Shown: positions 14,781 to 64,000 of the stretch, in pieces | Layout: every line of letters begins with the position of its first letter | How positions within the stretch are numbered: position 1 is the first letter of the stretch | Source: Leucobacter sp. L43 | GTDB taxonomy: Bacteria > Actinomycetota > Actinomycetes > Actinomycetales > Microbacteriaceae | Assembly: GCF_016597785.1 (NCBI RefSeq) | Contig: NZ_JAENJG010000002.1 | Location: 248,001 to 312,000, forward strand | Length of the DNA stretch: 64,000 bases | Direction of reading: 5' to 3' | The notes under the pieces: model-generated | Told to the model about the DNA's origin: nothing | Seen by the model: the letters and a program-made list of their open reading frames with translations, nothing else | Databases searched by the model: none | Program-made: the position numbers and the translations under genes

Positions 14781-16304
14781 ATGACTGCACTGTGGCACCG
14801 CACCGGCCCGACCATCCCCGTCTCCCCGTCGGAGCCGACGCCGCTCGGGCGTCGCTACGACACGGTCGTCGTCGGCGCGGGACTCACCGGCCTCGTGACG
14901 GCGGTCCTGCTCTGCAGAGCGGGTCAGCGCGTCGCCGTGCTCGAGGCTCGCACGGTCGGAGCCGTCACGACGGGCCACACGACGGGCAAGCTCAGCCTCC
15001 TCCAGGGAAGCGTCTTCTCGCAGGTGCGGCGGCACGTCGGCGACGAGGCGCTCTTCGCCTATGCGGAGGCGAATCGTGAGGGACAGGCGTGGATGGTGCG
15101 CGAGCTCGAACGACTCGGTCTGCCGATCGATCGGCGCGATGCCGTGACGTACGCCAATGGCGAGGACCATCTCGACGCCCTGGAGCGCGAGCTCGAGGCA
15201 TGCCGTGTCGCAGGAGTCGATGCGCGCTGGGCTGACGATACGGGCCTGCCGTTCGCGACCGCCGGGGCGATCACGCTCGACGACCAGGTCCAGTTGCAGC
15301 CCATCGAGGTGCTGGCGGCGCTCGCCGCCGAAGTGCTCGAGCGCGGCGGCGAGATCCATGAGCGGAGGCGCGTGCACGGGGTGGAGGAGGACGGCGACGC
15401 CCTGCAGGTGCAGACTGCGGGCGGCGTCGTGTCGGCCGACCGCTGCGTGCTCGCGACGGGTGTGCCGATCCTCGACCGAGGTCTGTTCTTCGCGCGACTG
15501 GAGCCCTCGCGCTCCTTCGTCACCGCCTATGACGTGCCGGAGGACCGCATCCCACGCGGTATGCACATCTCGATCGACGCCCCGGACCGCTCCCTGCGCA
15601 CCGCTCGGGGCACCGATGGGGAGACACTGGTCGTCGTCGGGGGCGGCGCGCACACGACCGGACGGGGCGGAGACACGGTGCGCACGCTGGCGGAACTCGA
15701 TGCCTGGGCGCAGCAGAAGCTCGGCGCCGGGCCGCGGGTCACGTGGTGGGCCGCGCAGGATTATCAGCGGCACGCGTCGCTCCCGTTCGCGGGTCCGCTC
15801 GCAGGAGGGCACGGCCGCATCTTCACCGCGACGGGCTACGACAAGTGGGGGATGACGAATGCAGTGGCCGCGAGCCTCGTGATCGTGTCGCAGATGCTCG
15901 GCGGCCGGCTCGACTGGGCCGACACCATGCGCCACGCGGGCCCCGGTGTCGCCGGCGTCGCCGATGCGGTGCGCGTCAACGCGGAGGTCGCAGCGCATGT
16001 CGCCGTCGACTGGACCAAGGCGGTGCTGAGCGGCTCTGGCGCGGCCGACCTCGCAGAGGGGGAGGGCGCGATCGTGCGAGAGGGCGCCCGGCCGGTCGCG
16101 GTCTCACGCGTCGACGGGAAGCTCTGCCGCGTGTCGGCTGTGTGCACGCACCTCGGCGGCATCGTGAACTGGAATCCTGCAGAGCGCAGCTGGGATTGCC
16201 CGTTGCACGCCTCGCGATTCTCCGCAACGGGAGAGGTGCTCGAGGGGCCCGCCGTTCGAAACCTCGCAGCGGTCGATGACGACCGGAGCGCAGCCGAAGG
16301 CTAG
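14781..16304 (+). CDS. FAD-dependent oxidoreductase with C-terminal Rieske domain (YhfW-like)
   Basis: The 507-residue protein has an N-terminal DAO-type FAD domain, with YDTVVVGAGLTGLVTAVLL near residue 27 and TGHTTGKLSLLQG, the second FAD contact of this subfamily. The C-terminal 90 residues form a Rieske [2Fe-2S] domain with both ligand pairs, CTHLGG and CPLHASRF. The fusion is the architecture of Bacillus YhfW and similar proteins of unknown substrate. It is expected in the cytosol as no signal is seen. It starts 259 bases from the divergent sigma factor gene and precedes two stress-type genes, which hints at a stress or redox role. Confidence 0.87.
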   Translation: MTALWHRTGPTIPVSPSEPTPLGRRYDTVVVGAGLTGLVTAVLLCRAGQRVAVLEARTVGAVTTGHTTGKLSLLQGSVFSQVRRHVGDEALFAYAEANREGQAWMVRELERLGLPIDRRDAVTYANGEDHLDALERELEACRVAGVDARWADDTGLPFATAGAITLDDQVQLQPIEVLAALAAEVLERGGEIHERRRVHGVEEDGDALQVQTAGGVVSADRCVLATGVPILDRGLFFARLEPSRSFVTAYDVPEDRIPRGMHISIDAPDRSLRTARGTDGETLVVVGGGAHTTGRGGDTVRTLAELDAWAQQKLGAGPRVTWWAAQDYQRHASLPFAGPLAGGHGRIFTATGYDKWGMTNAVAASLVIVSQMLGGRLDWADTMRHAGPGVAGVADAVRVNAEVAAHVAVDWTKAVLSGSGAADLAEGEGAIVREGARPVAVSRVDGKLCRVSAVCTHLGGIVNWNPAERSWDCPLHASRFSATGEVLEGPAVRNLAAVDDDRSAAEG

Positions 16305-53887: not shown

Positions 53888-54616
53888 TCAGTGCCTCGTG
53901 AGGAACCCGCGCAGCAGCGCAGAGGAGCCTTCGACGTGCTCGAGCATCGCCTCCGCCGCCGACTGCGGTCGCCCGGCGAGAATCGCCGACACGATCGCTT
54001 CGTGCTGATCGTTCGAGTGCACGATGTTGGGCTGCAGCATCGGAATCGCTTCGAGCAGCGCATTGACGCGCGTGCGCAGGTTGGCGACGAGCGGTACGAG
54101 GCTCGTGGAGCCCGAGAGCTCGGCGATCAGCAGGTGGAGGCGCGAGTCGAGCCGTCGGTGATCCGCCGCTTCCGAGCTCGAGCACTCCTCCAGTGCGTGA
54201 GCGAGCGCGGCCCGCTCCTCCGCGGAGAGCTCTCGCCCTGCCGCTTCGCGCGCCGCCCCCACCTCGAGCACGCGGCGCAGCGTCGTGACGTCCTCGATCT
54301 CCGCAGCGCTCGGCAGGGTCGCGGAGCCGCCTCCCAGCGCGGAGTCCTCGGGAATGCGGTCGGCGACGAACGTGCCGCCGTACCGGCCCCGCCGAGAGAC
54401 GACGTATCCGGCGTCGGCGAGCGTCGCGAGCGCCTCGCGCACCGTGTCGCGGCTCACCTTGAGCATCGTCGCCAGGTCGCGCTCCGCCGGGAGCCGCTCG
54501 CCCGGACCGATCATGCCGAGGCGGATCGATTGCAGCAGCCGCTGCATCGTCTCCTCGTACGCATTGGTGGGCCGCGCCGCCCTGATGAGCAGCTCGATGC
54601 CCTCTGCCGCTTCCAT
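53888..54616 (-). CDS. GntR regulator, FadR subfamily
   Basis: The 242-residue protein has an N-terminal winged helix (LLQSIRLGMIGPGERLPAERD, then LATMLKVSRDTVREALATL and GYVVSRRGRYGGTF) and a C-terminal all-helical FCD-type domain with DSRLHLLIAELSGS and HEAIVSAILAGRPQSA, where metal or ligand binds. It is the last gene of the gamma-glutamylation operon, ten bases after the SDR, and probably controls the operon and the divergent permease. Candidate operators lie at 59070-59082 and 59141-59156. Confidence 0.9.
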   Translation of the reverse strand: MEAAEGIELLIRAARPTNAYEETMQRLLQSIRLGMIGPGERLPAERDLATMLKVSRDTVREALATLADAGYVVSRRGRYGGTFVADRIPEDSALGGGSATLPSAAEIEDVTTLRRVLEVGAAREAAGRELSAEERAALAHALEECSSSEAADHRRLDSRLHLLIAELSGSTSLVPLVANLRTRVNALLEAIPMLQPNIVHSNDQHEAIVSAILAGRPQSAAEAMLEHVEGSSALLRGFLTRH

Positions 54617-54626
54617 CGTGCGGCGC

Positions 54627-55418
54627 TCAGAGCGGCGTCGTGTACGCGCTCGTCAGCCCGCCGTCGACGAGGAAGGTGGAGGCGGTGATGAAGGAGGCGT
54701 CGTCGCTCGCCAGGAAGGCGACGGATGCGGCGAGCTCCTCCGGCTGAGCGAAGCGGCCGACGGGAACGTGCACGAGACGTCGGGCGGCGCGCTCCGGATC
54801 CTTCGCGAAGAGCTCCTGCAGCAGCGGAGTGTTCACCGGCCCGGGGCAGAGCGCGTTCACGCGGATGCCCTGCCGCGCGAACTGCACGCCGAGCTCGCGC
54901 GTCATGGCGAGCACGCCGCCCTTCGACGCGGTGTACGAGATCTGCGAGGTGGCCGAACCCATGATCGCGACGAACGAGGCCGTGTTGATGATCGATCCGG
55001 ATCCCTGCGCCGTCATGTGGCGGAGCGCCGCCCGCGAGCACAGGTAGACGCTCTTGAGATTCACATCCTGCACCTTCTCCCACGCGGGCAGTTCAGTGAC
55101 CTCGATCGAGTCGTCGTCGTCCGGGGAGATGCCGGCGTTGTTGAAGGCGATGTCGACCGCGCCGTACTCGCGCGCTGCCGTGTCGAAGAGATGGTTGACC
55201 TGCGCTTCGTCGGTGACGTTCACCTTGACGAAGAGGCCGTCGACTGCGGCGGCGGCCGCTGCGCCGCTCGTCTCGTCCATGTCGCCGATGACGATGCGCG
55301 CCCCTTCGGCGCGCATGCGTCGGGCAGTGGCGAGACCGATGCCGCTTCCGCCGCCGGTGATGACGGCGACCTTGCCGGCGAGGCGCTGCGTGAGGTCGAT
55401 GGGGGTGATGTCGCTCAT
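54627..55418 (-). CDS. Classical SDR, candidate gamma-glutamyl alcohol dehydrogenase
   Basis: The 263-residue SDR has the NAD(P) motif VAVITGGGSGIGLATARRM, the NNAG element in DIAFNNAGISP and the catalytic triad in NTASFVAIMGSATSQISYTASKG. Family members oxidise secondary or primary alcohols. It follows the aldehyde dehydrogenase gene by 64 bases in the gamma-glutamylation operon. The polyamine route would need a PuuB amine oxidase at this step, and none is present. A dehydrogenase acting on an alcohol such as gamma-glutamylethanolamide fits the gap, but the substrate is inferred. Confidence 0.87.
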   Translation of the reverse strand: MSDITPIDLTQRLAGKVAVITGGGSGIGLATARRMRAEGARIVIGDMDETSGAAAAAAVDGLFVKVNVTDEAQVNHLFDTAAREYGAVDIAFNNAGISPDDDDSIEVTELPAWEKVQDVNLKSVYLCSRAALRHMTAQGSGSIINTASFVAIMGSATSQISYTASKGGVLAMTRELGVQFARQGIRVNALCPGPVNTPLLQELFAKDPERAARRLVHVPVGRFAQPEELAASVAFLASDDASFITASTFLVDGGLTSAYTTPL

Positions 55419-55482
55419 GACGGATCCTTCCTGAGGAAAGCAGGGTACAGCGTGGGAGATGCGGGGACGGGCGGGCCCGGGG

Positions 55483-56838
55483 TTACTCGCTCGCGAAGAA
55501 CACGTTCTTCGTCTCGGTGAAATGCTCTGCCGCGTCAGGGCCGAGCTCCCGCCCGAGCCCCGACTGCTTGAAGCCGCCGAAGGGCGTCGTGTACCGCACC
55601 GACGAGTGCGAGTTGACCGAGAGGTTGCCGCCCTCGACGCCGCGGGCGACGCGGATGCCGCGGCCGAGGTCGGACGTCCAGATCGAACCGCTCAGCCCGA
55701 AATCGGAGTCGTTCGCGAGGTGCAGCGCGTCGGCCTCGTCTTCGAAGGGCAGGACCGAGACGACCGGCCCGAACACCTCCTCAGTGGCGATGCGCGAGCC
55801 TCGCTCGGGAGTGACCACCGTGGGAGCGAACCACGCGCCTGGCCCGTCCGGGCAGGAACCCCGGAACGCGACGGGCACGTCGTCGGTGAGGAAGCCGGCG
55901 ACGCTCTCGCGGTGCGCCTGCGTGACGAGGGGCCCGACCTCCGTCGATTCGAGCGTCGGATCGCCGACCCGCACACCCTGCACAGCCCGTTCGAAGTGCT
56001 CCATGAAGCGGTCGTAGACGCTGCGCTGCACGAGCAGTCGGCTTCGGGCGCAGCAATCCTGGCCGGCGTTGTCGAACACCGAGTACGGCGCGGTCGCTGC
56101 GGCCCGCTCGATGTCGGCGTCGGCGAACACGATGTTCGCGCTCTTGCCGCCGAGTTCGAGCGTGACCCGCTTCACCTGATCGGCGCACCCAGCCATGATG
56201 CGCTTGCCGACCTCGGTCGACCCCGTGAAGACGACCTTGCGCACCGACGGATTCGTCACGAAGCGTTCGCCGACGACCGAGCCGCGCCCGGCCAGCACCT
56301 GGAAGAGGCCCTCCGGCAGCCCCGCTTCGAGCGCGAGCTCGCCGAGCCGCAGGCTCGTGAGCGGCGTCCACTCGGCCGGCTTCAGCACGACGGCGTTGCC
56401 CGCGGCGAGCGCCGGGGCGAAGCCCCACGAGGCGATGGTCATCGGGAAGTTCCAGGGCGTGATGACGCCCACGACGCCGAGCGGTTCGTGGAACGTGACG
56501 TTCATGCCTCCCGCGACGGGAATCTGCTGGCCGATCAGGCGCTCGGGCGAGCCGGAGTAGTACTCCAGCACGTCGCGCACGTGCCCGGCCTCCCACCGCG
56601 ACTGGGTGATGGGATGACCGGAATTGGCGGTCTCGAGTTGTGCGAGGTGCTCGACGTCGGCATCCACCGCGTCGGCGAATCGTCGGAGCACGCGAGCGCG
56701 GTCGGCGGGTGCGACGGACGCCCAGTCGCGCTGAGCTCGGACCGCGTGCGCGATCGCGGCGTCGGTGGCGTCGACGTCGAGGTGGGCCACCTCGGTGACC
56801 GGGGCTCCGGTCGCGGGATTGATGACGGTGTAGCTCAC
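55483..56838 (-). CDS. NAD(P)-dependent aldehyde dehydrogenase
   Basis: The 451-residue enzyme belongs to the aldehyde dehydrogenase superfamily. The cofactor region is VGVITPWNFPMTIASWGFAPAL and VFTGSTEVGKRIM, the general base Glu is in VTLELGGKSANIVF, and the nucleophilic Cys is in FDNAGQDCCARSRLLV; PFGGFKQSGLGRELG ends the fold. Length and motifs resemble the betaine/gamma-glutamyl-aminobutyraldehyde group. It overlaps the hydrolase gene by four bases, so it should oxidise the gamma-glutamylated aldehyde before hydrolysis. Confidence 0.92.
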   Translation of the reverse strand: MSYTVINPATGAPVTEVAHLDVDATDAAIAHAVRAQRDWASVAPADRARVLRRFADAVDADVEHLAQLETANSGHPITQSRWEAGHVRDVLEYYSGSPERLIGQQIPVAGGMNVTFHEPLGVVGVITPWNFPMTIASWGFAPALAAGNAVVLKPAEWTPLTSLRLGELALEAGLPEGLFQVLAGRGSVVGERFVTNPSVRKVVFTGSTEVGKRIMAGCADQVKRVTLELGGKSANIVFADADIERAAATAPYSVFDNAGQDCCARSRLLVQRSVYDRFMEHFERAVQGVRVGDPTLESTEVGPLVTQAHRESVAGFLTDDVPVAFRGSCPDGPGAWFAPTVVTPERGSRIATEEVFGPVVSVLPFEDEADALHLANDSDFGLSGSIWTSDLGRGIRVARGVEGGNLSVNSHSSVRYTTPFGGFKQSGLGRELGPDAAEHFTETKNVFFASE

Positions 56839-57644
56839 GGCTGCTCCTTCGATGCGTGCTCGGATGACGGGACGGGTGACGGGATGACGCTCTCGCGCCG
56901 GGAACGGTACGTCGCCGCGGCTGAGACGAGGCCGGCGAAGAGCCGGCGATCCTCACGGTTCTCCTCTGGATGCCACTGCACGGCGACCCCGAAGGGCAGG
57001 GCGTCGATCTCGATCGATTCGATGATGCCGTCGACGGTGCGACTGGTCGCGGTGAGCCCGTCGGCGAGCGCATCGATCGCCTGGTGGTGATACAGGTGCG
57101 CGCGGGCGTTGCGGTCATCGCCGAGCAGCTCTCCGATGCGCGACCCGGCGTCGACCTCGACATCGATCTCCGTGAACACCCCCTGGCCGGCCTGGTACCG
57201 GTCGTCGCCGACGATGTCGGGGAGATGCTGGATCAGCGTGCCCCCGAGCTCGACGTTGATGACCTGCGCTCCCCGGCAGATGCCGAGCAGCGGGAGCTGC
57301 GCGTCGATGGCCGCATCGAGCAGCGCCGCCTCGAACGCGTCGCGGTCGGTGCGCGGAGCTCCGGTGCGCTCGTGGGGGTCGGCCCGGTAGCGCGCAGGAT
57401 CGACGTCGGCGCCGCCCGAGAGGATGAGCCCGTCGAGCCGAGAGACGATGCCCCGAGCGACACCGGGCGCGACCGGTTGCGGGGGCAGCACGATCGCGAC
57501 GCCGCCGACGTCGGTGACCGCATCGAGATACACCTGCGGGAGGAAGGAGGCCGGGACATCCCAGACCCCCGTTTGAGCCTGCTCGAGGTAGCTCGTGATG
57601 CCGATGAGCGGCGGAGCCGGCGCGTCAGAGTCGTTCGAAGCCAC
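56835..57644 (-). CDS. Gamma-glutamyl hydrolase, PuuD-like (class I amidotransferase fold)
   Basis: The 269-residue protein resembles PuuD, which releases glutamate from gamma-glutamyl-GABA. The nucleophile is Cys in LPLLGICRGAQVINVELGG, and the His-Glu pair is in GVAVQWHPEEN. Other family residues are GLILSGGADVDPARY and HLYHHQAIDALADGL. GTG 57644 is chosen because GGGAG lies seven bases upstream, although no ATG exists nearby; it then overlaps the ligase gene by 20 bases. It overlaps the aldehyde dehydrogenase gene by four bases. Its product here may be glycine or GABA plus glutamate. Confidence 0.88.
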   Translation of the reverse strand: MASNDSDAPAPPLIGITSYLEQAQTGVWDVPASFLPQVYLDAVTDVGGVAIVLPPQPVAPGVARGIVSRLDGLILSGGADVDPARYRADPHERTGAPRTDRDAFEAALLDAAIDAQLPLLGICRGAQVINVELGGTLIQHLPDIVGDDRYQAGQGVFTEIDVEVDAGSRIGELLGDDRNARAHLYHHQAIDALADGLTATSRTVDGIIESIEIDALPFGVAVQWHPEENREDRRLFAGLVSAAATYRSRRESVIPSPVPSSEHASKEQP

Positions 57645-58995
57645 GGACCCGCTCCCAATCGGTGACGGCGGCGTCGTAGGCTCGCACTTCCACGCGAGCC
57701 GCATGGGTGTAGTGCTCGACCACCTCGTCGCCGAAGATGTCGCGTGCGAGCGAGGACTGCCCGAAGAGGTCGGCCGCCTCGCGCAGGGTGGTGGGTACCC
57801 GGGCGACGTCGCTCGTGTAGGCGTTGCCTCGGAGCGGCTCACCGAGTTCGAGCTGCTGCTCGATGCCCGCGAGGCCGGAGCCGAGCATGCCTGCGACGGC
57901 GAGGTACTGATTCACATCGCCCCCTGGCACGCGGTTCTCCACGCGCATGCCCTGGCCGTGCCCGACGACGCGGAGCGCGCAGGTGCGGTTGTCGTGGCCC
58001 CACGCGACCGCGGTGGGCGCGAAGCTGCCGTCGACGTAGCGCTTGTACGAGTTGATGTTGGGTGCGTAGAGCAGCGTGAACTCGCGCATCGCCGCGAGCT
58101 GCCCCGCGATGAAGTGGCGGAACGTCTGCGACATGCCGTCGGGAGCGTCGTCGTCCGCGAAGACCGGGTCTCCTGCGGTGTTGCGCAGGCTCGCGTGCAC
58201 GTGGCAGCTGTTGCCCTCGCGCTCGTTGAACTTCGCCATGAACGTGATGCTCTTGCCGTGCTTCTCGGCGATCTCCTTCGATCCGCTCTTGTAGATCGAG
58301 TGGTTGTCGCACGTCGGCAGTGCGTGCGTGTAGCGGAAGGCGATCTCCTGCTGCCCGAGGTTGCACTCGCCCTTGACGCCCTCGCAGTACATGCCCGCGG
58401 CGTCCATCGAATTGCGGATGTCGCGCAGCAGCGGCTCGATCCGGGTGGAGCCCTGCAGAGCGTAGTCCGTGTTGTAGTCGCTCGCCGGAGTGAGGTCGCG
58501 GTAGCCGCTGCGCCACGCGCTGCGGTAGTCGTCGTCGAAGACGAGGAACTCGAGCTCGGTGCCGATGAAGGGCACGAGGTCGTGCGCGGCGAGGCGATCG
58601 ATCTGGTGCTTCAGGATCTGGCGCGGAGACACGGAGATGGGGGAGTGGTCGCTCGCGAGCGTGAGATCGGCCATGACGAGGGCGGTTCCGGGCAACCACG
58701 GGATGCGTCGCAGCGTGTCGAGGTCTGGGATCATCGCCATGTCGCCGTAGCCGCTCTCCCAACTGGTCAGGGCGTAGCCGTCGACGGTGTTGAGCTCGAC
58801 GTCGACCGCGAGCAGATAGTTGCAGCACTCGGCGCCGTGCGCCATGACGTCTTCGAGGAAGAGCCGGGCCGAGACGCGCTTGCCGACGAGGCGTCCCTGC
58901 ATGTCGGTGAACGCGACGATGACCGTGTCGATCTCGCCGGCGGCGACCGCTCCGCGAAGTTCTTCGGGGGTGAGATTGCCGCTCGCGGGAATCAT
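57625..58995 (-). CDS. Glutamine-synthetase-like gamma-glutamyl-amine ligase
   Basis: The 456-residue protein has the glutamine synthetase fold: FTDMQGRLVGKRVSARLFLED at the start, metal and ATP residues in GTELEFLVFDDDY and KGECNLGQQEIAFRYT, and substrate and ATP elements in GNSCHVHASLRN and VENRVPGGDVNQYLAVAG. It lacks features of housekeeping GlnA and resembles the PuuA/GlnA3/GlnA4 branch, which joins the gamma-carboxyl of glutamate to an amine using ATP. In Streptomyces coelicolor, GlnA4 was described as a gamma-glutamylethanolamide synthetase; whether this protein uses ethanolamine or a polyamine is inferred from the permease and SDR. It heads the catabolic operon. Confidence 0.88.
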   Translation of the reverse strand: MIPASGNLTPEELRGAVAAGEIDTVIVAFTDMQGRLVGKRVSARLFLEDVMAHGAECCNYLLAVDVELNTVDGYALTSWESGYGDMAMIPDLDTLRRIPWLPGTALVMADLTLASDHSPISVSPRQILKHQIDRLAAHDLVPFIGTELEFLVFDDDYRSAWRSGYRDLTPASDYNTDYALQGSTRIEPLLRDIRNSMDAAGMYCEGVKGECNLGQQEIAFRYTHALPTCDNHSIYKSGSKEIAEKHGKSITFMAKFNEREGNSCHVHASLRNTAGDPVFADDDAPDGMSQTFRHFIAGQLAAMREFTLLYAPNINSYKRYVDGSFAPTAVAWGHDNRTCALRVVGHGQGMRVENRVPGGDVNQYLAVAGMLGSGLAGIEQQLELGEPLRGNAYTSDVARVPTTLREAADLFGQSSLARDIFGDEVVEHYTHAARVEVRAYDAAVTDWERVRGFERL

Positions 58996-59069
58996 GTGCT
59001 CTCCTTGTGCTCGTCGTCGAGGTGAGAATGCGTGCTCCGCCTGCCCGGCGCTGCAGCGCTGAAAAGGTA

Positions 59070-59082
59070 GGTTTCAAGACCA
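59070..59082. promoter_or_regulatory. Candidate FadR-type operator 1
   Basis: GGTTTCAAGACCA carries GGT and ACC arms around TTCAAG, in the divergent gap between the ligase and permease genes. It is near the likely promoter of the ligase operon. Confidence 0.35.
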
Positions 59083-59140
59083 TTACATCATGAAGCCCGG
59101 GGCTTGATGCAAGCTTCCCGCCGCAGCCAGCGCACAAAGG

Positions 59141-59171
59141 TGGTTGCAAACGACCAATAGCTCGCTATAGT
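59141..59171 (+). promoter_or_regulatory. Permease promoter with overlapping operator 2
   Basis: TTGCAA (59144-59149) and TATAGT (59166-59171), 16 bases apart, form a good promoter. The -35 lies inside TGGTTGCAAACGACCA (59141-59156), an imperfect palindrome with TGGT and ACCA ends like FadR-family sites. Repressor binding would block the -35. Confidence 0.5.
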
Positions 59172-59261
59172 CGGCAGTGGCGCACCGCTCAGCCGATTCC
59201 CAGCGACGGGCATCGCAACGCAGCATCTCGTATCCATCACACCGTAGTGAAAGAGGTCGAC

Positions 59262-60812
59262 ATGGCCAAGGACACCCTGAAGGTTTCAGGTGCCACGTAC
59301 ACCACCGCAGAGTCGGGGTACTTCGAGAAACGCAAGCTCAAGCGATCGGCCGGCGTGTGGGGGCTCTGGGGCCTCGCCGTCGGCGCCGTGATCTCCGGCA
59401 ACTTCTCCGGATGGAACTTCGGCATCGAGGCCGCCGGATTCGGCGGCATGCTCATCGCCTTCGCCATCCTCGTGGTCATGTACTACGGGCTCATCTTCTC
59501 GATCGGCGAGATGGCGGCCGCGATGCCGCACACCGGCGGCGCGTACTCCTTCGGCCGGGCGGCGCTCGGCCCGTGGGGCGGGTTCGTCACCGGTCTGGCT
59601 GAGACGATCGAGTACGTCGCCACAACCGCGGTGATCGTCTACTTCTCCGCGGGGTACGCGAACGGCGTCACCGAGGGGCTCATGGGCTTCAGCCTGCCGA
59701 CGTGGCTCTGGTGGATCATCCTCTACGCCGCCTTCGTCGGCCTGAACACGGCCGGCGCGGCCATCTCACTGAAGTTCGCCATCATCGTCTCGCTCATCTC
59801 CATCGGAGTGCTCGTGCTCTTCGCCGTCATGGCGCTCGCGAGCGGAGCCATGAACTGGGGCAGCCTCTTCGACATCGAGCCCGACCCGGGCCAGAGCCTC
59901 TTCCTGCCGCACGGGGTGCTGCCGATCCTCTTCGCCATGCCGTTCGCGATGTGGCTCTTCCTCGGCATCGAGGAGCTGCCGCTCGCCGCCGAAGAATCGC
60001 ACAATCCCGTGCGCGACATCCCGCGAGCCGGGCTGTGGGCTCGCGGCACGCTGATCGTCACCGGCCTGCTCGTGCTGGTGCTGAACACCGGCGTCCTGGG
60101 ATCCGAGACGACGGGAGTCGCCGGCGAACCGCTGCTCGACGGCTTCCGCGCGATCCTCGGCGACGACCTCGCGTGGGTCGCCGGCCTCCTCGCACTCTTC
60201 GCGCTCTTCGGCCTCCTCGCCTCGCTGCAGGGCATCATGTTCGCCTACGGGCGCAACATGTACTCCCTGTCGCGCGCGGGTTACTACCCGCGATTCCTGT
60301 CCCTCACCGGCAAGCGCCAGACCCCGTGGGTGGCGCTGATCGCCGGCGCGCTGATCGGTCTGGCCGCGCTGATCATCGTCGAGCTCACGGGTGGAGACAG
60401 CGGCGTGGGCGGCGCGATCGTGCTCAACATCGCCGTCTGGGGCGCGGTGCTCGCGTACTTCATGCAGATGCTCTCCTTCGTCATCCTTCGACGCAAGTAT
60501 CCGAACGTGAAGCGCCCGTACCTGAGCCCGTGGGGTGTGCCCGGCGCCATCATCGCCGCCGTCATCTCGGCGCTCATCTTCGTCGGCTTCCTGCTGAACG
60601 AGACCTTCCGGCCCGCCATCATCGCCATCGTCGTCGTCTACGTTCTGGGTCTGATCATCTTCGGCGTCTATACGCGCCACCGGCTCGTGCTCTCCCCAGA
60701 GGAGGAGTACGCGGTCTCGGGGGGCCTGCACGGCGATCCGCAGAGCGACGGGTACGGCGGAACGGTCGAGGATCAACTGCTCGCGATGGACGGGAGAGAC
60801 GAGGATCGCTGA
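59262..60812 (+). CDS. APC-family permease, ethanolamine-permease type
   Basis: The 516-residue membrane protein has about 12 hydrophobic segments of the amino acid-polyamine-organocation fold. Its start pattern YFEKRKLKRSAGVWGLWGLA and VISGNFSGWNFGIEAAGFGGM, and AMPHTGGAYSFGRAALGPWG match ethanolamine permeases more closely than PuuP. ATG 59262 follows AAAGAGG at five bases. It diverges from the ligase gene by 266 bases, and a hairpin follows it. It likely imports the amine that the ligase glutamylates. Confidence 0.88.
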   Translation: MAKDTLKVSGATYTTAESGYFEKRKLKRSAGVWGLWGLAVGAVISGNFSGWNFGIEAAGFGGMLIAFAILVVMYYGLIFSIGEMAAAMPHTGGAYSFGRAALGPWGGFVTGLAETIEYVATTAVIVYFSAGYANGVTEGLMGFSLPTWLWWIILYAAFVGLNTAGAAISLKFAIIVSLISIGVLVLFAVMALASGAMNWGSLFDIEPDPGQSLFLPHGVLPILFAMPFAMWLFLGIEELPLAAEESHNPVRDIPRAGLWARGTLIVTGLLVLVLNTGVLGSETTGVAGEPLLDGFRAILGDDLAWVAGLLALFALFGLLASLQGIMFAYGRNMYSLSRAGYYPRFLSLTGKRQTPWVALIAGALIGLAALIIVELTGGDSGVGGAIVLNIAVWGAVLAYFMQMLSFVILRRKYPNVKRPYLSPWGVPGAIIAAVISALIFVGFLLNETFRPAIIAIVVVYVLGLIIFGVYTRHRLVLSPEEEYAVSGGLHGDPQSDGYGGTVEDQLLAMDGRDEDR

Positions 60813-60819
60813 TGCGCCG

Positions 60820-60847
60820 CTCGGGGCGGGCGCTCACCCGCCCCGAG
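60820..60847 (+). terminator. Hairpin after the permease gene
   Basis: An 11-base-pair perfect stem, CTCGGGGCGGG with CCCGCCCCGAG, loop six bases, lies just after the stop. No T-run follows, so it may be a strong pause or a rho-assisted terminator. Confidence 0.5.
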
Positions 60848-60948
60848 CCGCTCCGGCGGCGACCGCGATGCGGCGCTGGAACGTCCGCGCCGCGATCCCG
60901 CCCCGATGCTAGAGTGAGCACACATTGTGAATACCGGCCATCAAGTTG

Positions 60949-61143
60949 TGGCGGGAGAGTTCAGGGCAGAACGATTCGACCCTGGCGCCGTAGGAGCAAT
61001 CCCTCCCCGGGAATCTCTCAGGCCCCCGTACCGCCCCAGCACGGCAACTCTGGAAAGCAGCTGACGCGTGCGTCGGCTCACCGACGGTGCAAGGGACCCG
61101 CTCTGGCGGCGACCGAATCTCTCAGGTCCCATACAGAGCGGGG
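60949..61143 (+). ncRNA. Tandem glycine riboswitch
   Basis: Two aptamer-like units lie before gcvP. Each has the conserved AATCTCTCAGG (61012-61022 and 61116-61126) and the upstream glycine-binding pieces, CCGTAGGAGCAA near 60988 and CGACGGTGCAA near 61082. The first unit opens with GGCGGGAGAG. The layout is the cooperative two-aptamer glycine riboswitch, which activates glycine cleavage genes when glycine is plentiful. The region after it has a possible RBS-hiding stem: GAGGATC (61143-61149) pairs with GATCCTC (61188-61194) next to the gcvP start. Confidence 0.9.
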
Positions 61144-61194
61144 AGGATCCCAGTACATCCGCGCGTTCGCGCGCGACAGCCCTCGGAGATCCTC

Positions 61195-64000
61195 GTGACA
61201 GCCCTTTCCGCACCCCGCACCTTCCCCGATCGACACATCGGAGTCACCGACCCGGCGCATGTCGCGACGATGCTCGCCGAGCTCGGTTACGAGTCGCTCG
61301 ACGCACTCGTCGACGATGCGGTGCCTGCCTCGATTCGCAAGTCCGAACCCCTCGACCTGCCCCAGGGCCGCAGCGAAGAAGAGATTCTCGCCGACCTCCG
61401 GGCGCTCGCCGCGAAGAACGTCGTCAAGACCCAGATGATCGGACAGGGATTCTCCGGAACGCACACCCCGCCCGTCATCCGGCGCAACGTGCTCGAGAGC
61501 CCGGCCTGGTACACCGCCTACACGCCGTACCAGCCCGAGATCTCGCAGGGGCGTCTCGAGGCGCTCCTGAACTTCCAGACGATGGTCTCCGATCTCACCG
61601 CTCTCGAGATCGCGAACGCCTCCATGCTCGACGAGTCGTCGGCCGCGGCCGAGGCCGTGCTGCTGATGCGGCGCGCCAATCGCGCGCCCGCCGCCGCACG
61701 CGCCGTGATCGACGCGAATCTCTTCCCGCAGACCATCGCGGTGATCCGCGGCCGCGCGGAAGCGCTCGACTTCGAGGTCGAAGTCGCCGACCTGTCGCAG
61801 GGGCTGCCCGAGGGCGACATCTTCGGCATCGTGCTGCAGCAGCCGGGCGACGACGGTGCCGTCGTCGATCATGCCGCAGTGATCGCAGCGGCGAAGGAGC
61901 GCGGCGCGATGGTCACGGTGATCGCCGACCTGCTCGCACTGACCCTCATCGTGCCGCCAGGGGAGCAGGGGGCCGACGTCGCCGTCGGCAACACGCAGCG
62001 TTTCGGAGTACCGCTCTTCTACGGCGGACCGCACGCGGCGTATCTCGCGGTGCGCTCAGGGCTCGAGCGGGCGCTGCCGGGCCGGCTCGTCGGCGTATCG
62101 AAAGACGCGGCCGGCCGCACCGCCTACCGTCTCGCACTGCAGACCCGAGAGCAGCACATCCGCCGTGAGAAGGCCACGAGCAACATCTGCACCGCGCAGG
62201 CACTCCTCGCCATCACCGCATCGATGTACGCCGTCTACCACGGCGCCGACGGGCTGACCGAGATCGCGACCCGAGCGCATCGACACGCGCGCACGCTCGC
62301 CGCCTCGCTCGCCGCGGCGAGCATCCCGCTCGCCGCGGAGTCATTCTTCGACACGGTGCGGGCGAGCGTGCCGGGACGGGCCGACGAGATCATCGCGACC
62401 GCGGCGGAGCACGGCGTCAATCTGCGTCGGGTCGACGCGGACACGGTGAGCGTCTCCACCGACGAGACGACCACTCCCGAGCATGTCGCGGCCGTGGTGC
62501 GCGCCTTCGGGGCCGAGATCGTCGAGGCCCCCGAGGCCGAATCGGAGCGCTTCGGCTTCGCCGCGGAACTCACGCGCACGAGCGACTTCCTGACGCACCC
62601 GATCTTCACGACCATCAACTCCGAGACCCAGATGCTGCGCTACCTGCGTCGGCTCGCAGACCGCGACCTCGCGCTCGACCGCACCATGATCCCGCTCGGT
62701 TCGTGCACGATGAAGCTCAACTCCACCGCCGAGATGGAGGCGATCTCCTGGCCCGAATTCGCCGGGATCCACCCGTACGCGCCCGAAGACCAGACGCGCG
62801 GCTGGCGCGAGCTCATCGCCGACCTCGAGGGGCGACTCGTCGAGATCACCGGCTACGCGGGCATCTCGTTGCAGCCGAACTCGGGCGCACAGGGCGAGTA
62901 CGCGGGTCTCCTCGCGATCCGCGGATACCATCGCTCGCGCGGCGACGACCAGCGCACGGTGTGCCTCATCCCCGCTTCGGCGCACGGCACGAACGCTGCC
63001 TCCGCGGTGCTCGCGGGGATGCGCGTCATCGTCGTGCAGAACACCGAGACGGGGCACATCGACCTCGCCGATCTCTCGGCGAAGATCGACGCGCACCGCG
63101 ACGAACTCGCCGCCATCATGATCACGTACCCCTCAACCTACGGCGTGTACGACGACGACGTGCGCGAGGTGTGCGACCAAGTGCACGAGGCGGGCGGCCA
63201 GGTCTACATCGACGGCGCCAACATGAACGCGCTCGTCGGCCTGGCCCAGCCGGGGCGATTCGGGGGCGACGTGTCTCACCTGAATCTGCACAAGACCTTC
63301 GCGATTCCGCACGGCGGCGGCGGGCCCGGCGTCGGGCCCATCGGGGTGGCCGAGCACTTGCTGCCGTTCGTGCCGAACGACCCGACGGGCACGTACTCGG
63401 TGAGCGGCGGCGTTCCCGTGGTCGCAACGCTCTTCGGCTCGGCCGGCGTGCTTCCCATCTCCTACGCCTACATCTCGATGATGGGCGCTGATGGGCTCAC
63501 CCTCGCGACGAAGACGGCGCTGCTCAGCGCCAACTACATCGCCGCGAGGCTCACCGAGCATTTCCCGGTGCTCTTCACCGGGGCGACCGGGCTCGTCGCG
63601 CACGAGTGCATCCTGGACCTGCGCGCGCTCACCGCTCAGTCTGGAGTGACGGCGGAGGACGTCGCGAAGCGACTGATCGACTTCGGGTTCCACGCCCCGA
63701 CGCTGGCGTTCCCCGTCCCCGGCACACTCATGGTGGAACCGACCGAGTCCGAGGACCTCGCCGAGATCGACCGGTTCATCGAGGCGATGGTGACGATCCG
63801 TGCGGAGATCGACGCGGTCATCGCAGGCAGGATCGCCGTCACCGAATCGCCGCTCCGTCTGGCGCCGCACACCGCGGAAGCGCTGATATCCGGTGCATGG
63901 GACCGCGCCTACGGCCGGGAGCAGGGCGCCTACCCGGTCGAGGCGCTCCGCATCGACAAGTACTTCCCGCCGGTCGGGCGCATCGACGGCGCCTACGGCG
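61195..64000 (+). CDS. gcvP: Glycine dehydrogenase (decarboxylating), P protein, 3' end missing
   Basis: The frame is open to the right edge; 935 residues are visible and only about 15-20 C-terminal residues are missing. It is the single-chain (homodimeric) P protein of the glycine cleavage system. The start [19 protein letters not shown] and the N-terminal half motif [20 protein letters not shown] in pieces are typical. The Schiff-base lysine is in [19 protein letters not shown] near residue 700. GTG 61195 follows GGAG at six bases. The riboswitch directly upstream ties its expression to glycine. Confidence 0.97.

Follow-up and report, generated by a model that had tools for sequence, protein, structure and literature searches.

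At the 3′ end of a 64,000-nucleotide stretch of the Leucobacter sp. L43 genome (3.15 Mb; contig NZ_JAENJG010000002.1), which at its full length we call the window, an operon of five genes is accompanied by a divergent permease gene and, behind it, by a glycine riboswitch and glycine cleavage genes. The operon lies on the minus strand, in transcription order ligase, hydrolase, aldehyde dehydrogenase (ALDH), short-chain dehydrogenase/reductase (SDR) and FCD/GntR regulator, and the ligase, hydrolase and ALDH genes overlap end to start. On the plus strand, beyond the ligase, follow the permease, two glycine aptamers and gcvP. The locus very probably serves the degradation of ethanolamine to glutamate and glycine. 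Its features, in window coordinates, are as follows.

53888–54616, minus strand: GntR-family regulator with FCD domain, closing the operon (over the cut-offs of PF00392 and PF07729).
54627–55418, minus strand: classical SDR (NF004713, PRK06057, 486.8 bits, cut-off 404; TGxxxGxG and YxxxK motifs).
55483–56838, minus strand: ALDH (PF00171, 515.6 bits).
56835–57644, minus strand: class-I amidotransferase-like hydrolase, peptidase C26 type, PuuD-like (PF07722, 198.3 bits; GICRG and WHPEE motifs).
57625–58995, minus strand: glutamine-synthetase-like ligase of GlnA4 type (PF00120; residues of the GlnA4 list).
59061–59086, no strand assigned: predicted operator, ligase-proximal, AAAGGT-N10-ACCATT (matrix score 24.2).
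59134–59160, no strand assigned: predicted operator, permease-proximal, N11 spacing (matrix score 21.9).
59262–60812, plus strand: APC permease, ethanolamine-permease-like (TIGR00908, 331 bits; longest frame from 59247).
60819–60848, plus strand: strong G+C hairpin after the permease stop (from sequence and fold; 10 pairs, 12 possible).
60942–61146, plus strand: tandem glycine riboswitch (RF00504 twice).
61195–64000, plus strand: gcvP, continuing beyond the window end (TIGR00461, 1279.6 bits, cut-off 859.2; start about 61195).
Beyond the window, plus strand: gcvT (TIGR00528, 354.4 bits, cut-off 235.9; stretch L085).
After gcvT, plus strand: gcvH (TIGR00527, 126.7 bits, cut-off 115.9; L085).
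After gcvH, plus strand: sdaA (TIGR00720, 638.1 bits, cut-off 345.1; L085).

For the hydrolase we chose the GTG start at 57644; the longest frame extends to 57842, within the ligase gene. An initial annotation of the same DNA had named ligase, PuuD-like hydrolase, ALDH, SDR and regulator on one strand, with the permease divergent and gcvP under a glycine riboswitch next door, and all of these are in their place. Its label FadR for the regulator has to be dropped, since NF003444 gives 30.8 bits against a cut-off of 189 and the protein has GntR and FCD domains instead. We read the whole as a GlnA4-type ethanolamine operon, repressed by its FCD/GntR protein, whose glycine would be sensed by the adjoining riboswitch-gcv unit, and give this explanation a probability of about 0.78. 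It builds on gene content, ligase group, operator conservation, riboswitch and synteny, as observed here and in relatives.

The gene row is not a product of chance. Relatives were compared over the best 80 matching loci (more exist), with flanks of up to 8 kb, often less, and with 56835–57623 alone as the hydrolase query. The order ligase-hydrolase-ALDH-SDR on one strand was kept in 73 of the 80; at the other seven the available stretch ends short or does not reach the SDR. The FCD gene comes next in the row at 66 loci, and a divergent permease is present at 64.

The ligase was aligned on glutamine synthetase (GlnA) of E. coli. It keeps E147, E149, E210, E217, H265 and E353, R319 and R355, and H267 and R342, which are the metal, glutamate and ATP positions listed for GlnA4 in PMC6529630. 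The S. coelicolor GlnA4 described there has the same residue pattern, with numbers higher by 9 up to H276 and by 6 from R325. In the window ligase F325 replaces E327 of glutamine synthetase and E260-G261 replaces N264-G265. Within the alignment, Glu at the N264 position marks the nine actinobacterial sequences that come from SDR-type clusters; no Paracoccus, Aminobacter, Salipiger, Sinorhizobium or PuuA row has it. T176 aligns to the ammonium-pocket Tyr179, in a column that is unsure, the position given in the paper being itself model-dependent (V189 or D186). The GlnA2-like row of the own genome starts in this alignment at its first Met, with the D50 position outside it.

Overall identity gives the same grouping. 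The window ligase is 83–88% identical to 12 Leucobacter records among the best 80 loci, 67% to Embleya (Streptomycetaceae), 61–64% to Nonomuraea and Arthrobacter, and 47–51% to the aligned alphaproteobacterial, Paenarthrobacter, Paraburkholderia and Thermomicrobium ligases; identity falls to 28% with E. coli PuuA and to 27% with both E. coli GlnA and the GlnA1-like protein of the same genome. The nearest PDB entries are 11zs (421 bits) and 5dm3 (406 bits); the latter is presumably the protein encoded in the published C. salexigens operon for ethanolamine. By sequence, then, the ligase belongs to the GlnA4 (gamma-glutamylethanolamide synthetase) group and not to PuuA, and ethanolamine as its substrate is taken from published work on relatives. 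Its neighbours SDR, ALDH, amidotransferase, permease and regulator make up the set in the legend of Fig. 2 of PMC6529630.

Could the operon still serve polyamines in the manner of Puu, with the amine oxidase encoded elsewhere? The PuuD- and PuuC-like partners would suit such a role, and the genome does hold two PuuB-like proteins, at C1:1355.6k (34%) and C1:1149.0k (33%), the better one beside ABC transporter genes; the earlier statement that PuuB is missing holds for the cluster. However, the ligase reaches 194.9 bits with the glutamate-putrescine ligase model NF045547 (cut-off 650) and 47.6 bits with PauA7 (4hpp), far under its scores for 5dm3 and 11zs; an SDR stands in the row at 73 of the 80 loci; and neither PuuB-like gene has an operator-like site with 0 or 1 mismatch in its vicinity. 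We consider a polyamine operon very improbable. The ALDH was compared with 25 of its 43 NCBIfam models and is under the cut-off in every case (PuuC 343 against 850), and the hydrolase is below the PuuD equivalog NF008471 (93 bits, cut-off 266).

Two side observations concern PuuB-like proteins. The best of them (L149, G000:C1:1346000-1364000) sits with a second DAO protein, an amidohydrolase and ABC transporter genes. The window itself carries, at 14781–16304 on the plus strand, a FAD oxidoreductase (DAO) with a C-terminal Rieske domain and weak similarity to PuuB (24%).

The route would run as follows, with ligase substrate, order of steps and repressor role modelled on relatives. Ethanolamine would be taken up by the APC permease and joined by the ligase to glutamate, with ATP, as gamma-glutamylethanolamide. 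The SDR, a proposed gamma-glutamylethanolamide dehydrogenase, would convert the alcohol to the aldehyde, and the ALDH, a proposed gamma-glutamylacetaldehyde dehydrogenase, would carry this on to gamma-glutamylglycine, which the C26 protein, a proposed gamma-glutamylglycine hydrolase, would split into glutamate, recycled, and glycine. The FCD/GntR protein is proposed as an ethanolamine-responsive repressor and possible counterpart of EpuRI, acting on two AAWGGT-N10/11-ACCWTT sites, one per promoter, and released by ethanolamine or a pathway intermediate. Glycine would then be sensed by the tandem riboswitch, turning on gcvP-gcvT-gcvH-sdaA, and be converted to CO2, ammonia and methylene-tetrahydrofolate; serine hydroxymethyltransferase, whose presence we assume, would make serine, and SdaA would give pyruvate, completing a glycine-to-pyruvate route. 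The partners of the ligase recur in relatives: SDRs 72–75% identical adjoin it in Embleya, Nonomuraea and two Arthrobacter plasmids, and FCD proteins 47–49% identical in Embleya, Nonomuraea and Arthrobacter sp. StoSoilB13. EutB (PF06751) has no match in the own genome and, among 14 control genomes, a match in E. coli only.

Another small amino alcohol, such as alaninol, 1-amino-2-propanol or N-methylethanolamine, could in principle enter the same enzymes and leave as alanine, sarcosine or another product. The SDR could accept several alcohols, and a related pathway glutamylates isopropylamine and proceeds via gamma-glutamyl-alaninol, according to the available part of PMC6776027. Alaninol and N-methylethanolamine would be compatible with the chemistry; 1-amino-2-propanol would yield a ketone and thus leave the ALDH without work. 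Against this alternative, GlnA4 is described as specific for ethanolamine in PMC6529630, and the glycine-consuming genes linked to such clusters in two phyla speak for glycine as the product. We hold a different amino alcohol to be unlikely.

The isopropylamine pathway has a possible echo elsewhere in this genome. A second ligase-like gene (L086, G000:C1:894000-908000), 26% identical to the window ligase and with Arg and Asn at the positions aligned to E131 and H271 of glutamine synthetase, is surrounded by two C26-type hydrolases, a class-I amidotransferase, a cytochrome P450, a ferredoxin-reductase-like flavoprotein and an APC permease, a set that resembles the Ipu set as far as it is given in PMC6776027.

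The predicted operator, AAWGGT-N10/11-ACCWTT, comes from the gaps between ligase and permease. Sixty-five gaps were available, that of the window and those of 64 of the 80 loci; at the remaining 16 the permease had no match (15) or lay elsewhere (L009). GGT-N10-ACC occurred in 26 gaps and GGT-N11-ACC in 41, with about 3.5 expected for each and maxima of 8 and 6 in 100 resamplings, which were first-order Markov sequences and not exact shuffles; a control with spacing 3 was seen in 3 gaps (3.7 expected). One or both forms were present in 57 gaps and neither in eight. The classical FadR operator TNGTNNNACNA had a single match in the 65 gaps and was rejected in favour of this palindrome.

A matrix trained on the 55 non-Leucobacter gaps found in the 64-kb window two strong sites, both in the ligase/permease gap; the next best score was 11.3. 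The site at 59061–59086 is the only mismatch-free match to the N10 pattern in the genome, and the permease-proximal site covers the −35-like TTGCAA of a promoter-like site (59144–59171) before the permease. Beyond the training set, the matrix also found sites in Embleya and both Arthrobacter clusters, and none in the Nonomuraea or Thermomicrobium clusters. Our genus sample holds 54 Leucobacter genomes, cited below by labels such as G029, and 27 of them have the ligase (E ≤ 1e-100). In 25 of the 26 ligase-bearing stretches other than the window a site scores at least 14, placed before the ligase or the permease; the stretch of G048 has none at this score. In G029, where about 2 kb of extra DNA separates ligase and permease, one site stays with each gene, as would be expected if each site serves one promoter.

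We infer that the FCD protein is the binder of this operator, because of its place in the cluster, where its match follows the SDR in most loci. It is not a universal partner: three Mycobacterium loci (L066, L075 and L078) with room for an FCD gene have the ligase-hydrolase-ALDH-SDR row, but over the stretch compared neither FCD nor permease is matched, and a different regulator and transporter may be at work in them. The matrix had one match in a further 84 kb of the own genome, made up of six stretches. The only other mismatch-free site, of N11 type, lies at C1:968147-968169 (L110) between MFS-like and HxlR-like genes, named from their translations; a wider regulon through it was rejected, and we treat it as chance or as the site of another regulator. 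When up to two mismatches were allowed over the whole genome, the counts (40 and 46 per strand; reversed control 24 and 30) were largely noise, and we set them aside.

The two Rfam RF00504 aptamers lie at 60942–61043 (58.8 bits) and 61045–61146 (38.2 bits; cut-off 32), and the gcvP start comes directly after the second. In the predicted fold 61182–61194, with the GGAG before the gcvP start, pairs with 61143–61153 at the end of the second aptamer, with a modest z of −2.1; this pairing would fit translational control of gcvP.

How constant is this neighbourhood within the genus? Linkage was judged from riboswitch search positions and the gene maps of 26 stretches plus the window. Leaving out G045 and G046 (contig edges), 25 ligase-bearing genomes can be resolved, and 19 of them have the riboswitch no more than 8 kb from the ligase, the chance of such linkage in one genome being about 0.5%. 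The permease stands between ligase and riboswitch in 15 genomes and has no match in G027, with the riboswitch 7.4 kb from the ligase, or in G041, with 157 bases between them. In G031 and G040 the ligase operon, permease, riboswitch and gcvP all run in one direction. The maps include gcvH inside the stretch in 15 cases, with sdaA after it in 12, and gcvP is near the ligase in 8 of the 12 Leucobacter loci among the best 80. The gcv linkage is thus a real and conserved Leucobacter trait, kept despite rearrangements. A tree of 30 ligases, whose backbone is poorly resolved (good support for 12 of 27 inner branches), would agree with a single linkage event in Leucobacter and later losses, and gives no support to repeated gain of the linkage within the genus.

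Presence of gcvP also follows the ligase. It was found in all 27 ligase-bearing genomes (in G041 as a partial gene at a contig end) and in 19 of the 27 without ligase (in G011 only in part); the eight remaining genomes also have no riboswitch. Fisher's test gives p 0.004 for all genomes and 0.009 for good assemblies (22/22 against 16/23), values that ignore relatedness.

Related ligases on plasmids stand in several gene combinations. Twenty of 30 listed records were sampled (H5, H7, H8, H13, H15–H18, H28 and H29 were left out, and 651 further records exist); three of the twenty, from Embleya, Nonomuraea and Arthrobacter sp. StoSoilB13, were unannotated, and their genes were located with the window proteins. 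Embleya, Arthrobacter and Nonomuraea have clusters of the window type, the Nonomuraea stretch having no permease match. Among the 17 annotated records, 11 combine ligase and ALDH with an iron-containing alcohol dehydrogenase, and two have an SDR (Arthrobacter sp. U41, and Thermomicrobium with a gene named eat). In the 11 alphaproteobacterial clusters the ligases are about 47–51% identical to that of the window, the alcohol step falls to the unrelated Fe-dependent dehydrogenase in all 11, and hydrolysis to an N-formylglutamate-amidohydrolase in nine.

In four of these 11 clusters (loci L101, L107, L108 and L109) a glycine-using module comes directly after the cluster: bhc genes in Aminobacter aminovorans, Aminobacter sp. 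NyZ550 and Paracoccus pantotrophus, and glyA with an L-serine ammonia-lyase gene in Salipiger abyssi. No such module was seen within 7–8 kb in P. denitrificans, P. alcaliphilus, S. meliloti, Paracoccus sp. TOH, R. leguminosarum, P. albus or SC52, the last with malate synthase in its stretch. These modules support glycine as the exit in a suggestive way and are not a test, since two of the four are closely related and further one-carbon and flavoprotein genes lie in the Salipiger region. In the P. denitrificans cluster the binding protein has a match (1.4e-169) to PDB 4uab, which we take to be the C. salexigens ethanolamine-binding protein.

Three further arrangements were noted. On the plasmid of Arthrobacter sp. 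U41 (L097, 5600–13266) an amidase and an inositol-monophosphatase-family gene precede the ligase operon, with a choline-kinase-family gene nearby, and an operator before the amidase hints at release of ethanolamine from amides or phosphate esters. The plasmid of Paenarthrobacter sp. YJN-5 (L100, 5177–15393) has an inverted duplicate of a ligase-aminotransferase-ALDH unit beside 5-oxoprolinase genes. In L104 and L120 a ligase about 47–48% identical to that of the window lies a few genes from those for a 2-aminoethylphosphonate transaminase, a desaturase and a hydrolase of C26 type.

Several of the data weigh against an ethanolamine operon coupled to gcv. As to the substrate, it cannot be read from the ligase alone, whose relatives at 48–50% identity occur beside aminotransferases or 2-aminoethylphosphonate genes; four of the 17 annotated plasmid records have neither SDR nor iron-containing alcohol dehydrogenase and carry aminotransferase or aminoethylphosphonate genes. 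The permease is under the TIGR00908 ethanolamine-permease equivalog cut-off (331 against 381.75 bits); it covers nearly the whole of that model, by far its best, the next giving 109.4 bits. As to the coupling, the riboswitch is 12–16 kb away in two of the 25 genomes (G025, G047) and elsewhere in four (G015, G032, G039, G048), and gcvP is present in none of the 68 non-Leucobacter loci among the best 80, within the flanks given above. The matrix scan found no operator at gcv in the window, and operator control of gcv there is rejected. The G+C hairpin between permease stop and riboswitch, without a T run, is a possible terminator; a consensus scan of this gap found neither a consensus terminator nor a consensus promoter. 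With this hairpin gcv may have its own transcript in the window genome, and coupling to ethanolamine would then be through glycine alone.

These data leave room for the view that the ethanolamine route is right and that the riboswitch-gcv neighbourhood is old genus synteny, uncoupled beyond general glycine metabolism. The ligase tree would agree with one linkage event kept by descent; riboswitch and gcvP also occur in 19 of the 27 genomes without ligase; and the hairpin and the missing gcv operator would have the same meaning. On the other hand, linkage within 8 kb survives changed order (G031, G040), the 2-kb insertion (G029) and absence of the permease (G041, G027), the ligase never occurs without gcvP, and other glycine modules adjoin four of the 11 alphaproteobacterial clusters. 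G041 has an operator 75 bases ahead of the riboswitch, and in G031 and G040 one lies upstream of the riboswitch-gcv unit, so direct co-control of gcv is possible there. We rate mere synteny at somewhat less than an even chance. The gcv neighbourhood extends across the genus, lends itself to testing and is probably meaningful.

For the ethanolamine operon with its riboswitch-gcv neighbour a further step may be proposed. Glycine could be the obligatory exit of the route, and a module for its disposal could have been parked beside the route repeatedly: riboswitch-gcvPTH-sdaA in Leucobacter, the beta-hydroxyaspartate cycle in Aminobacter and Paracoccus pantotrophus, glyA-serine ammonia-lyase in Salipiger. 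The Leucobacter halves would then form a relay without a shared protein regulator, the FCD repressor opening the upper half and glycine, via the riboswitch, the lower. We hold this tentatively, at just short of even odds; that pathway glycine drives the neighbouring riboswitch is an inference. If true, the relay would chain two types of signal by the metabolite itself and explain how ethanolamine could be used as carbon and nitrogen source without ethanolamine ammonia-lyase. For experiments the locus is conveniently compact, its predicted operator lying close to the riboswitch as a natural sensor of glycine.

The route and the gene set are already known. According to PMC6529630, Streptomyces has a conserved cluster that encodes an SDR, an ALDH, GlnA4, a regulator, a putative ethanolamine transporter and a glutamine amidotransferase; deletion of glnA4 is reported to impair growth on ethanolamine, GlnA4 to be specific for it in vitro, and EpuRI to repress glnA4. 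Its proposed steps lead to gamma-glutamylglycine and then to glycine and glutamate, as repeated in PMC9397018; those after GlnA4 were proposed from gene neighbourhoods and transcription, and the available parts of these papers report no enzyme assay for them in actinobacteria. The initial annotation was right that gamma-glutamylation of ethanolamine by GlnA4 is known in Streptomyces, and its claim of a fuller pathway than known has to be given up for ligase, SDR, hydrolase, ALDH and permease, because the same kind of cluster and the same steps are in that paper. Its proposed chemistry, from ethanolamine to glutamate and glycine, is strengthened and is the best reading; the linkage to gcv is conserved in Leucobacter, and co-regulation of the two is a hypothesis.

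Our comparison with Streptomyces uses the text of PMC6529630 and the Embleya sequence. SCO1610-SCO1615 share with the window the GlnA4-type ligase, SDR, ALDH, glutamine amidotransferase and a regulator gene, as well as the proposed end products; a putative permease is present in several species and absent from S. coelicolor. SCO1615 is a member of the formylglutamate amidohydrolase family in the text and a glutamine amidotransferase in the legend of Fig. 2. In the window, by contrast, the regulator comes last in the operon, the permease is divergent and riboswitch-gcv follows it. The EtoX-type operon of Chromohalobacter salexigens and Phaeobacter has the same four steps and the same ligase branch, as far as PMC10132767 and PMC9397018 describe it, and the window ligase is 51% identical to that of a similar Paracoccus denitrificans cluster. 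In Phaeobacter it is induced on phosphorylethanolamine, and its TRAP binding protein EtoX binds ethanolamine with a Kd of 7.9 uM (PMC10132767). It differs in its Fe-dependent alcohol dehydrogenase, N-formylglutamate-amidohydrolase-type hydrolase, TRAP uptake and RpiR regulator, all unrelated proteins. With the E. coli Puu pathway the operon shares the gamma-glutamyl logic, an ALDH and a PuuD-like hydrolase, whereas its ligase is not PuuA (28%) and an SDR replaces the amine oxidase PuuB.

Among the papers listed in searches of the open-licence literature, none links the ethanolamine route to riboswitch-gcv by its title and abstract. New here are the predicted operator, the Leucobacter gcv linkage, the presence of gcvP with the ligase and the glycine genes beside alphaproteobacterial clusters. 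The actinobacterial gcv operons treated in PMC6944388 share with the window the tandem glycine riboswitch before the gcv genes, whereas in the window genome this unit stands beside a probable ethanolamine operon and is followed by sdaA.

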